Source of the DNA: a virus
Length of the DNA stretch: 24,614 bases
Virus record (IMG/VR): IMGVR_UViG_3300023119_000114
Span: 1 to 24,614 of that record
Strand: one strand, 5' to 3'
Both the position numbers and the translations under genes were made by a program. The notes beneath the pieces were generated by a model. It was given only the letters and a program-made list of their open reading frames with translations. It ran no database searches and had not been told where the DNA came from. Shown one piece after another: positions 6,647-17,707 of this stretch (position 1 is the stretch's first letter; every line of letters starts with the position of its first letter).

Positions 6647-6654
6647 TATAAATA
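6647..6654 (+). promoter_or_regulatory. T4-type late promoter for the rightward structural operon
   Basis: Exact TATAAATA octamer, the T4 late promoter element read by the gp55 sigma factor with gp33 and gp45. It lies 23 bases before the gp4 ATG, so the leader would be about 15 bases and has no visible Shine-Dalgarno sequence. It overlaps functionally with a leftward octamer 9 bases away. Confidence 0.75.
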
Positions 6655-14486: not shown

Positions 14487-15380
14487 TTAGCTATTTGCCA
14501 GTTTTTGAAAAAACTCCAATGATTCATCATCATCGTTGTTATTACTAGTAACCTGATAATCAGTATTAGAAAATTCAGGTTGTTTAGTTTCAGGAATATC
14601 CATCTCTGGACGATATACTGGTTCTTGTTTTTGTTCCATATTAAGAACCCGCATAAGACGATCCTTCAACTGATCATAGGACTTAAAATTGGATTCATTT
14701 ACAAACTCTTGCAAAGAATTTTCTGATTTCCAGATACGCTCTAGTTCAGAATCATCTTCACTCAAAGCAGATGGAGAATCAAACTCTGAACGGTCATAGT
14801 TACGATATCCTTCTACATTACGAATCTTGAGTTTGAAATTTGCACCATTCCATAAATCAAATGGGTTTACTGACTCTTCATCAGCAAACTGTGGATTCAT
14901 AGCTTCATTTAGTTTTTCAAAGATTTTCTTACCATACTTGTAAAGGAATACTTTTCCTTCATTTTCTGGTTTTGCAGAATCAGTGACAACATAAATGTTA
15001 CTAATAAAGTGCAAACGACGTTTTTGCTTACGAGCAATCTCTTTATCAGACTCTACACCAGAGTTCCATAGTTTTGAATTATACTCAGAAACTGGATCTG
15101 GTTTACCAATTGTTGTTAGAGAGTTTTCAATATACCAAAGTCCAGTTGGTCCTTGAAAACCGTGGTCATAAAGACGAACAAAAGGAACATCCTCTTCACT
15201 TGGAGGCGGTAGAAAACGAATAATAGCGTAGCCATTACCTGATTTATCTACTGTAGGAGTCCAAAACCGTTCATCTGCACCTTTTTTACCACTGTCTTGG
15301 TTTGCCATCTTTGAAAGTTCTGCATTGAGAGCTTCCATTGACTTTTTTCCAGACATACTTTTCAATTTAGAGAAGTCCAT
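14487..15380 (-). CDS. 32: Single-stranded DNA-binding protein gp32
   Basis: A 297-residue protein (T4 gp32 is 301). Residues 1-15 form the basic LKSM-type N-terminal segment used for cooperative binding. The core has YAIIRFLPPPSEEDVPFVRL, DHGF, GLWYIENSLTTIG, then KRRLHFISNIYVVTDSAKPE and NEGKVFLYKYGKKIFEKLN, matching the PENEGKVF-Y-(F/Y)GKKI strand of gp32. An acidic tail (NNNDDDESLEFFQKLANS) ends the protein, as expected for partner binding. There is no cysteine at all, so the T4 zinc site (one His, three Cys) is absent. Ribosome-binding site AAAGGAAA lies 6 bases before the ATG. It has its own promoter and a structured leader. gp32 coats ssDNA in replication, recombination and repair. Confidence 0.96.
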   Translation of the reverse strand: MDFSKLKSMSGKKSMEALNAELSKMANQDSGKKGADERFWTPTVDKSGNGYAIIRFLPPPSEEDVPFVRLYDHGFQGPTGLWYIENSLTTIGKPDPVSEYNSKLWNSGVESDKEIARKQKRRLHFISNIYVVTDSAKPENEGKVFLYKYGKKIFEKLNEAMNPQFADEESVNPFDLWNGANFKLKIRNVEGYRNYDRSEFDSPSALSEDDSELERIWKSENSLQEFVNESNFKSYDQLKDRLMRVLNMEQKQEPVYRPEMDIPETKQPEFSNTDYQVTSNNNDDDESLEFFQKLANS

Positions 15381-15443: not shown

Positions 15444-15472
15444 TATATAACATAATCATTTAAAGTAGTCAA
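15444..15472 (-). promoter_or_regulatory. Sigma70-type promoter of gp32
   Basis: On the minus strand, TTGACT (15467-15472), a 17-base spacer and TATATA (15444-15449). The -35 element lies in the last codons and stop region of the gp59 gene. Predicted start is about 15437, directly at the leader hairpin. Confidence 0.8.
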
Positions 15473-16031
15473 GGACTATTTTCTTTAATTTTTCTTCATT
15501 ATACTGAATAAATGGTGTATATTTTTTAATTTTTAACTCAATTTCTTCCCATATTGGTTCACCTTTTAGATTTTTATGAAAATATTTTTCACTTTTTGTC
15601 ATTTTAATCAGTATACAGAGTGTTTCTAACGATATTTTGTTACCCAAATACAGTTTTAACACTATTGGGTGTTGATTTTGCTCTATTTTTAGGTTTTTAT
15701 TGAAGTCATCATCAAGTTTTGATAGGTCTTGCTTAAACAAATAAGTCAAAGACTGTTGTTTCTTCAACCAAGACCTATATTCTCTCTCTGATTCTTCAGA
15801 ATAGACAAGTTCTTTGATCCAACTTTTGGGATTTTTGATAAAATTAGCAATAAGGAACCCTTGAACATCTTCGTGTTTTGCTAATTTCTGAAAAAATATC
15901 TTATCTTTTCTTTTTTCGAATGATTTTTGAGTCATTCGTGACTTACCATTGTATTTTAGGTAGTCAAACCTCTTCTGAGTGAAGTGATTTTTCAATGCAA
16001 TGTACATTGAAAATGCTTCGAATGGTGTCAT
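15456..16031 (-). CDS. 59: DNA helicase loader gp59
   Basis: A 191-residue, lysine-rich helical protein (T4 gp59 is 217). The match to T4 gp59 is clear in the first half: TPFEAFSMYIALKNHFTQKR, FDYLKYNGKSRM, EKRKDKIFFQKLAKHEDVQ and LIANFIKNPKSWIKEL correspond to the T4 pattern Y-V-KYN---R----YQKRRDK-FFQKLS---------I-N-V-N---WI. gp59 loads the gp41 helicase on gp32-coated forks and locks the polymerase until loading is complete. Its gene neighbours gp33 and gp32 are the same as in T4 (order 33-59-32). The ATG overlaps the gp33 stop codon (TAATG), so the two are coupled. Confidence 0.93.
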   Translation of the reverse strand: MTPFEAFSMYIALKNHFTQKRFDYLKYNGKSRMTQKSFEKRKDKIFFQKLAKHEDVQGFLIANFIKNPKSWIKELVYSEESEREYRSWLKKQQSLTYLFKQDLSKLDDDFNKNLKIEQNQHPIVLKLYLGNKISLETLCILIKMTKSEKYFHKNLKGEPIWEEIELKIKKYTPFIQYNEEKLKKIVLDYFK

Positions 16032-16273
16032 TAGAGGGGAAGTCTTTTTGGTTTCTCTAGAATGTTCAATTCTTCTGCTTCATACTGAAGTTTTGACATC
16101 ATAACTGGATCTTTTTTGATTAAACCTGCAATAAGTTCAACTTCAACATTATTTTGTTCACACCAAGAAACTACACCATCAATGTATTCAAGTTTTTTAT
16201 CAATACAATATTTTTGTATTTCATTTAGAATATTTTGATGAGTAAAGTTTTCATTTAAATTTATGTTTTTCAT
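16031..16273 (-). CDS. 33: Late promoter transcription coactivator gp33
   Basis: An 80-residue acidic helical protein. The C-terminal part reads YIDGVVSWCEQNNVEVELIA, then KLQYEAEELNILEKPKRLPL. I recognise the combination Y-D-V---CE---VE-E--A-LI and a terminal LN-L-K---LP in gp33 of marine T4-like phages, though T4 gp33 is longer (112). gp33 bridges the sliding clamp gp45 and host RNA polymerase at TATAAATA promoters. The start is chosen at 16273 rather than 16285, because GGAG lies 6 bases before this ATG whereas the upstream ATG has no ribosome-binding site. The gene order 33-59-32 supports the call. It begins about 20 bases after the tmRNA coding piece ends. Confidence 0.82.
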   Translation of the reverse strand: MKNINLNENFTHQNILNEIQKYCIDKKLEYIDGVVSWCEQNNVEVELIAGLIKKDPVMMSKLQYEAEELNILEKPKRLPL

Positions 16274-16330
16274 AACAATCTCCATAGTTAAGTGGTGGGC
16301 TTCTGTTTCCAGGTGCCCACCGAACCCAGA

Positions 16331-16372
16331 CTAGGCTGCTAGAGCATAGTCAAGAGGTGCATTATCGTTTGC
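16331..16372 (-). other. tmRNA tag reading frame (ANDNAPLDYALAA)
   Basis: Thirteen sense codons from the resume codon GCA to TAG. With the tRNA-borne alanine, the added peptide would be A-ANDNAPLDYALAA. It keeps the conserved AND start (bound by SspB-like adaptors in known systems) and the LAA end recognised by ClpX. The resume codon is preceded by AAATAGTT, like the conserved AUAGUC of other tmRNAs. Confidence 0.95.
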
Positions 16373-16457
16373 AACTATTTAACGGACCCGATAACGGTGG
16401 TATCATGCCGGTGATCTAAACTTTCCCTACACTATCAGTCGATCCTATTTGCCGCCC

Positions 16458-16576
16458 ATCAGAAGTATGATACTTCAGTCTTTCCTAGCCACGCTCCTGG
16501 GCTTTGTACTAGTCTGATTAAGGGTAAAGTCACGGTATTAAGTTATTATTACCTTAGAGTCCAAGTATCATACTTT
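16458..16576 (-). other. Intervening segment of the permuted tmRNA precursor
   Basis: 119 bases between the encoded CCA and the 5' G of the coding piece. It is bounded by a 13-bp inverted repeat, AAGTATGATACTT (16563-16575) and AAGTATCATACTT (16463-16475), which extends a stem from the acceptor end. Inside, TAAGGTAA can pair with TTACCCTTA (one bulge) and AGCC with GGCT. It is presumably removed by RNase P and 3' trimming. Confidence 0.8.
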
Positions 16577-16645
16577 TGGTGGACGGCAGCGGTACTGCCC
16601 CGCTGTCCTGTCTAGTTTCAAGATTGCCTCAAACAATCACAAGTA

Positions 16646-16676
16646 TATTTATACCATATGAAAAATCATTTGTCAA
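16646..16676 (-). promoter_or_regulatory. tmRNA promoter combining sigma70 and T4-late elements
   Basis: TTGACA (16671-16676), a 17-base spacer and TATAAA (16648-16653); extended by two bases the -10 is an exact TATAAATA late octamer (16646-16653). Predicted start is about 16641, three bases before the first acceptor-piece hairpin. The same site could serve host sigma70 early and phage gp55 late. Confidence 0.85.
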
Positions 16677-16697
16677 CCAATATTATTAAAAGAATTT

Positions 16698-16744: not shown

Positions 16745-17707
16745 TTATGCTAGGACTAAATGAATTAATAGAACAATAGCAACGGATGCTGATAAACCAA
16801 TCATCATTTTTAGAAAATCCATACCAATAAGCGGGAAAACTTTCTTGAATTTTGTTTTACCAGATAGCGAAGCAATTGCAAATTCTCGTCCTGCTAATAG
16901 ACCAACAAATACCCAAGTTGTACTCATTGGAATATCGTTTACTTCTTTGAAAATATAAAGAATGACAAAATATGCAGCATCAATAAGTGTTGCTGACCTG
17001 ACATATCGAGTACTATCTTTTTCAATCACAATATTTTGAATTTTACCACCACCCTCACGAAACATGAATGCAAGAGCAACAACAAAAACAAAACAAATGA
17101 CAAGAAGTAAATCTAGTGAAATTTCACGTGGTAGAAACACAGCAATATTTGCAATATCATGACTCAACCAAGTGTACCATAGAAAACCAGTTGTTACCCA
17201 TTGAGCAACTACCCATTTATTATGATTTTCACTATATCCTTTATCATTAATTTGACCGATTGGCATTTTATTAGAAACATATGTAATAATAATCCATAGA
17301 ACATATGCTGCTACTGCTGCCACTGCATATCCAGCCATTGATTTAAGTAACATTTTTTCTAAAACAAAAGTAGATGCAAATGCACTTAAAACAAGAAAAC
17401 TAGTAGACACAGGAATGCCAAATCGAGTTAACAATAAAAGTAATGCAGGTGCCAAGGCATGATACCATTGAACTTCAATAAAAGGAATTTTGTTCAATCG
17501 TCCATAACTAATATCACCGTTATTAATATACCAACCATAGAAGAGAGTGAATACCAATACTGATGATGCAGCACCCCACATATAAAGTTTTGAAACGGAA
17601 CGGTTTGATGCCATCCACGTTCCAAGAGTTTGTACACTGTCATTTGCTATGACAGAATATGCAGCTAAGAGAAAACCTAACCACATCCATAAAGTTAAAT
17701 CAAACAT
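16745..17707 (-). CDS. PiT-like inorganic phosphate permease (auxiliary metabolic gene)
   Basis: A 320-residue polytopic membrane protein with about 9-10 hydrophobic segments. Two half-repeats resemble the signatures of the PiT family (sodium- or proton-coupled phosphate permeases): VIANDSVQTLGTW near residue 20, with PVSTSFLVLSAFAS near residues 99-112, and SHDIANIAVFLPR near residue 183, with PMSTTWVFVGLLAGRE near residue 259. PiT proteins carry GANDVAN and P-S-TH- motifs twice. The first AND and the second HDIAN fit, with the usual leading glycine replaced. Substrate is inferred from the family; another anion is possible. Ribosome-binding site GAGG lies 8 bases before the ATG. A late promoter octamer sits 94 bases upstream. 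It would act in the host inner membrane, presumably raising phosphate uptake for phage DNA synthesis. Confidence 0.8.
   Translation of the reverse strand: MFDLTLWMWLGFLLAAYSVIANDSVQTLGTWMASNRSVSKLYMWGAASSVLVFTLFYGWYINNGDISYGRLNKIPFIEVQWYHALAPALLLLLTRFGIPVSTSFLVLSAFASTFVLEKMLLKSMAGYAVAAVAAYVLWIIITYVSNKMPIGQINDKGYSENHNKWVVAQWVTTGFLWYTWLSHDIANIAVFLPREISLDLLLVICFVFVVALAFMFREGGGKIQNIVIEKDSTRYVRSATLIDAAYFVILYIFKEVNDIPMSTTWVFVGLLAGREFAIASLSGKTKFKKVFPLIGMDFLKMMIGLSASVAIVLLIHLVLA

Follow-up and report, generated by a model that had tools for sequence, protein, structure and literature searches.

A tmRNA gene in a T4-like phage

Ribosome rescue is nearly universal in bacteria, and the locus analysed here bears on why phages should carry their own copy of the RNA for it. 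The stretch of DNA studied, hereafter the window, is a 24.6-kb (24,614-nt) IMG/VR virus record from a T4-like phage. Judged by its sequence, the source is a T4-like virus of water bacteria with its own complete copy of the ribosome-rescue RNA.

ARAGORN called a permuted tmRNA with tag ANDNAPLDYALAA on the minus strand of the window, and an Rfam covariance search, the check that a preliminary description made from the sequence alone had proposed, matched both RF01849 (alpha_tmRNA; full model at 16694–16291, 120.8 bits, E 8e-33, gathering threshold 50) and RF04321 (tmRNA_permuted; 100.7 bits, gathering threshold 47). The three programs and models thus bear out the reading of that description, a phage-encoded, two-piece, circularly permuted tmRNA gene of the alphaproteobacterial type, complete at 16290–16641 on the minus strand, and its coordinates and parts proved right to within 1–2 bases; it had included neither the promoter, nor the operon with gp33, nor the inverted repeat of the intervening segment. 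A detector for tmRNA anatomy found nothing in 2.2 Mb of shuffled sequence, so that the match in the window is far above chance. The features, in the order in which they would be transcribed, are as follows.

16646–16676, minus strand: composite promoter TTGACA-N17-TATAAATA, a sigma70-type −35 element with a T4-type late −10 box (exact match)
16577–16641, minus strand: acceptor piece, first in the permuted gene, its 5′ end predicted from the promoter (ARAGORN, Rfam)
16588–16604, minus strand: T-arm AGCGG-GGCAGTA-CCGCT (5/5 pairs, compensatory changes across viral relatives)
16577–16587, minus strand: acceptor 3′ strand GCCGTCC (16587–16581) and encoded ACCA (16580–16577) (7/7 pairs with 16457–16451, including G3:U70)
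16458–16576, minus strand: intervening segment of 119 nt, predicted to be removed, without an open reading frame
16451–16457, minus strand: acceptor 5′ strand GGGCGGC, where the coding piece begins (Rfam, script)
16290–16457, minus strand: coding piece with D-arm-like part, first pseudoknot region, tag frame and 3′ hairpin (RF01849 alignment)
16331–16372, minus strand: tag reading frame ANDNAPLDYALAA with stop TAG and resume codon GCA at 16372–16370 (ARAGORN, script)
16031–16285, minus strand: gp33 late-transcription coactivator, directly downstream of the tmRNA (Pfam PF16805, E 1.4e-12; PHROG 254)
15456–16031, minus strand: gp59 helicase loader (PHROG 269, E 7e-54)
14487–15380, minus strand: gp32 single-strand DNA-binding protein (Pfam PF08804, E 3e-45)

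The covariance score, the permuted order, the G3:U70 pair with a CCA end, and the resume codon with a tag ending in hydrophobic AA place the gene among the alpha-type permuted tmRNAs. The acceptor stem and T-stem are paired throughout, and the third acceptor pair, the G3:U70 wobble, is the alanine identity element. The coding piece was no more stable than its shuffles (z −0.39) in a folding program that is blind to pseudoknots. A 13-bp inverted repeat (AAGTATGATACTT; arms at 16575–16563 and 16475–16463) extends from the acceptor stem to close the intervening segment, and might be a processing aid or the mark of a former insertion. The order in the window is tmRNA, gp33, gp59, gp32, with gp33 probably starting at the ATG at 16273, after GGAG; no SmpB gene was recognised within the window.

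Relation to known tmRNAs

The nearest annotated isolate by gp32, which is 57% identical to that of the window, is the OM43 phage Methylophilales phage Melnitz (MZ577097; locus L002 here), which has an annotated two-piece SsrA. Like the window, Melnitz has a permuted alpha-type tmRNA in the order tmRNA, gp33, gp59, gp32, the composite promoter TTGACA-N17-TATAAATA and a tag ending in DYALAA (ANDNYVPVDYALAA). Unlike the window, it has a 54-aa reading frame in the intervening segment and a glutamine riboswitch between tmRNA and gp33 (L002:9402–9450, RF01739, 52.8 bits), which was not found in the window even at E ≤ 5. The Melnitz authors reported the two-piece tmRNA and its relation to SAR11-type genes (PMC9004378). 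Given the SsrA annotated at the corresponding place in Melnitz, and given that Buchholz et al. (2022) counted 53 tmRNA structures of the two-piece kind in phage genomes, 50 of which came from marine or aquatic samples (PMC9004378), the tmRNA of the window is already known in kind. What is fresh concerns the family: its phage-type promoter, the exchange of modules and the genes nested within the discarded segment.

Among bacterial genes, Caulobacter ssrA (Alphaproteobacteria, RF01849) resembles that of the window in gene order, first pseudoknot region, ANDN tag start, G3:U70 and 3′ hairpin, whereas the phage promoter of the window and the greater length of viral intervening segments set the phage genes apart from alphaproteobacterial ssrA. 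The window has no extra stretch separating the tag stop from the 3′ hairpin, as is also the case in a minority of the bacteria. The one-piece tmRNAs of the mycobacteriophage Bxz1 group and Bacillus phage G are likewise complete and phage-carried, but are not permuted. Both are listed among phages with ssrA (PMC4131195).

Conservation of the locus and selection on pairing

tmRNA had been called rare in phages in the preliminary description, and for this group that had to be rejected, since a permuted tmRNA lies upstream of gp33, 0.3–3.6 kb away, in 30 of 37 distinct relatives, counted by hand among loci that have at least 2.5 kb upstream and were fetched by gp59/gp32 proteins independently of the tmRNA (the raw count, 42/51, takes in loci fetched by tag); moreover, marine phages with two-piece tmRNAs had been reported in 2022 (PMC9004378).

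Across 27 distinct viral tRNA-like domains, no acceptor or T-stem pair cell departs from standard pairing (324/324 standard, 82 of them changed on both sides), a figure made slightly favourable by excluding rows with a displaced D-arm anchor and by picking the 3′ strand as the best-pairing CCA site, as against 41–56% paired in slid-partner controls; G3:U70 is invariant in all 27. The covariation of the viral stems is not explained by the choice of rows or strand. That every acceptor and T-stem pair has been kept despite 82 two-sided changes argues that the viral tmRNA is under selection as RNA.

These data also bear on whether the gene could be host contamination, an assembly artefact or a pseudogene. 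The window is a metagenomic contig, and some of the mosaic genes described below, two of which (L122 and L123) are known from one contig each, are perhaps partly chimeric assemblies; but phage genes flank the tmRNA on both sides, it recurs at this position in about 10 near-identical contigs, a tmRNA is present in the cultured phage Melnitz and all pairs are intact, so that we attach negligible probability to such an origin.

A composite promoter with a late box

The heptamer ATAAATA stands at a fixed place relative to the acceptor piece in 27 of 35 T4-like loci (selected by protein) and in 46 of 53 other viral permuted tmRNAs, the late box at this place being found in 73 of 88 viral tmRNA genes versus 0 of 59 bacterial ones, and it is almost absent elsewhere upstream of these tmRNAs. 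When 2.9 million viral contigs were scanned for the composite in its exact form, at least 117 distinct sites emerged, at least 28 of them directly before a permuted tmRNA, and by eye at least three further sites among those listed precede a tmRNA. The T4 late promoter is TATAAATA and its cyanophage counterpart NATAAATA; early promoters that overlap late ones have been proposed to provide a middle mode in RB49 and probably S-PM2 (PMC2984593). The box in the window has the motif and position of a putative T4-type late promoter. In the Melnitz work the ssrA promoter was classed as early (PMC9004378), but the position of the late box suggests that it would be used late as well, or late instead of early. 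The early half of the composite may be weak, since the TATAAA of the window promoter is without the final T usually needed by sigma70; the built-in promoter scan of the window, which demands T at the last −10 position, for that reason did not call the composite site. The conserved place beside gp33, together with the late-type promoter, yields a testable prediction on the timing of the phage tmRNA, for which the Melnitz work assumed early expression.

Over the whole window TATAAATA is not enriched (6 found versus 5.15 expected); the case for the promoter is built on where the box lies in the relatives. Exact boxes at window positions 6647, 6663, 16646, 17801 and 19876 are upstream of genes and in the right orientation, in a total count no higher than chance, and some TATAAATA boxes lie between divergent baseplate and head-closure genes, as expected of T4-type late promoters.

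Possible roles of the phage tmRNA and its tag

From the observed gene, anatomy, selection on pairing, conservation and promoter motif we infer how the tmRNA of the window would be transcribed, processed, charged, used in tagging and timed. In our judgement it is probably a working permuted tmRNA of a T4-like phage, which would provide ribosome rescue through infection via host AlaRS, SmpB, EF-Tu and proteases. Transcription from the promoter with host-type −35 and T4-type late −10 elements would give one precursor running into gp33, and removal of the 119-nt intervening segment would yield two pieces, acceptor and coding, joined by base pairing. Host AlaRS would charge this RNA through G3:U70, host SmpB and EF-Tu would bring it to stalled ribosomes, and ANDNAPLDYALAA would be added to the stalled proteins, directing them to host proteases. 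The likely benefit would be that ribosome recycling is kept up in the middle and late phases, as host DNA disappears, taking the supply of host ssrA with it, and broken mRNAs accumulate.

A tmRNA could also act as a decoy that binds SmpB or ribosomes and so blocks the host's own rescue, and a precedent exists in a tRNA-like form without a tag, similar to the one in phage DS6A (cited in PMC4131195, PMC11915505). A decoy would not need a tag frame, however, and the relatives retain theirs in full, from resume codon to stop, with 28 distinct tags; a pure decoy therefore seems very improbable to us.

The tags bear more directly on a second proposal, made by Buchholz et al. (PMC9004378), that the main effect of the phage tmRNA is to redirect proteolysis, with a tag of its own that leads to another protease or another rate of degradation, for instance in recycling host proteins. 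The tag of the window had been described as alphaproteobacterial, and this stands for its alpha-like ANDN start but not for position −5, before ALAA, which is Y/F/M in 26 of 28 distinct phage tags versus 8 of 46 sampled Alphaproteobacteria (Fisher p 1e-10), a sample that represents the class only and may not carry the tags of the true hosts. The tag part has, moreover, been swapped as a module between phages (L122, below), and such swaps between otherwise near-identical phages are natural experiments on the role of the tag. Nonetheless, all phage tags retain the general hydrophobic AA-COOH end, so that any change would be only of degree, and we consider redirected proteolysis unlikely to be the main role, though it deserves some weight beside ribosome rescue.

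Longer and odd tags (ANIKVSNDNTPFEAMKVAA, ATYASNDNVPYSAMKVAA, AAKAANDNTPFEAMKIAA) were seen in three related viral permuted tmRNAs (L130, L202 and L359). The tag did not serve to assign a host: NDN-x-DYALAA occurs in 7 places across ~85,000 species, only 3 of which are tmRNAs by ARAGORN, 1 of them alphaproteobacterial.

Intervening segments and nested genes

The intervening segment has a median length of 77 nt in viruses versus 23 nt in sampled bacteria (p ~1e-12, neither set being phylogenetically independent). That of the window has a reading frame of 5 codons only and no endonuclease gene. In L313, L314 and L316, three assemblies with one arrangement, it measures 642 nt and holds a 207-codon homing-endonuclease-like gene (L313:5441–6064; PHROG 655, E 2.8e-12; Pfam HNH just below cut-off) that runs at its end into the acceptor strand. 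Group I introns with homing endonuclease genes occur in tmRNA T-loops (PMC11915505) and, like the L313 gene, are mobile DNA within a tmRNA gene; unlike them, the HNH-type gene sits in the intervening segment of a permuted gene and needs no intron, because this segment is discarded anyway. A second partial D-arm motif (TAGGATCGACTGAT) just before the HNH-type gene looks as if left from an insertion. A trans-split tmRNA, suspected in L313 as ARAGORN found none there, was rejected, the acceptor piece being 642 nt upstream with a perfectly matching stem.

Most other long segments (~130 nt or more) contain frames of 32–75 codons soon after CCA, most with a purine-rich ribosome-binding-like site; small frames were found in L002 (9100–9264), L009, L037, L098, L054, L043, L104, L131, L087, L126 and L127. 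Two families of them have dN/dS of 0.15–0.16 and 0.19–0.32, the second including Melnitz, values that point to small genes under purifying selection. The Melnitz frame (L002:9100–9264) is without an annotated CDS. Genes nested in the discarded segment, including this unannotated one in a cultured phage, would represent unusual genome economy.

Mosaic tmRNA genes

Near relatives whose gp59 is 96–100% identical to that of the window nevertheless differ from it in the tmRNA interior. In L123 the T-arm, both acceptor strands (GGGGATG/CATCTCC, 7/7 paired with G3:U70) and the intervening segment are different, and exact copies of its T-arm and acceptor 3′ strand are present in marine T4-like phages whose tags are ANESYALAA and ANNNFAMAA. 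In L122 it is the pseudoknot and tag block that differs (ANDNEAFDYALAA), and this block is common to L313, L314 and L316. L313, in turn, equals the window exactly over 76 nt of promoter and 5′ block (window 16680–16605) and over 57 nt at the 3′ end (to 16289), despite a gp33 only 40% identical, and these exact end blocks suggest that the tmRNA gene was transferred, promoter through 3′ end, between distant phages.

We put at about even the chances that the tmRNA genes of phages are mobile cassettes of modular build. In the permuted layout the T-arm and both acceptor strands adjoin the discarded segment, so that one recombination would swap a complete matched acceptor stem and another the tag; within the discarded segment homing endonucleases and small phage proteins would nest without harm, and the composite early/late promoter would bring the gene under phage late control.

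Mobility of this kind could mean that the locus is selfish, a cassette kept by homing endonucleases that target the intervening segment and of little benefit to the phage. The HNH-type gene in L313, L314 and L316, the 76-nt promoter block that L313 shares with the window and the modules swapped among near-identical phages are all in keeping with this. Most copies, that of the window included, are without an endonuclease gene, yet their pairing and tag are kept, and mobility and usefulness can coexist; we therefore think a purely selfish locus improbable.

Genes beside the tmRNA

The gene upstream of the tmRNA in the window (16745–17707) encodes a 320-aa membrane protein without a Pfam match, possibly a PiT-type phosphate transporter. 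It is swapped in near-identical phages: the corresponding genes at L122:1–1735 read, by eye, like PstA/PstB of a phosphate ABC transporter, and L126 is similar. As a guide to the host the transporter-like gene was not decisive, its best matches (53–61%) being in sampled Alphaproteobacteria, with none in phage records. On the other side of the tmRNA, a tRNA-Asn gene follows directly in L313 and L316 (L313:6192–6267).
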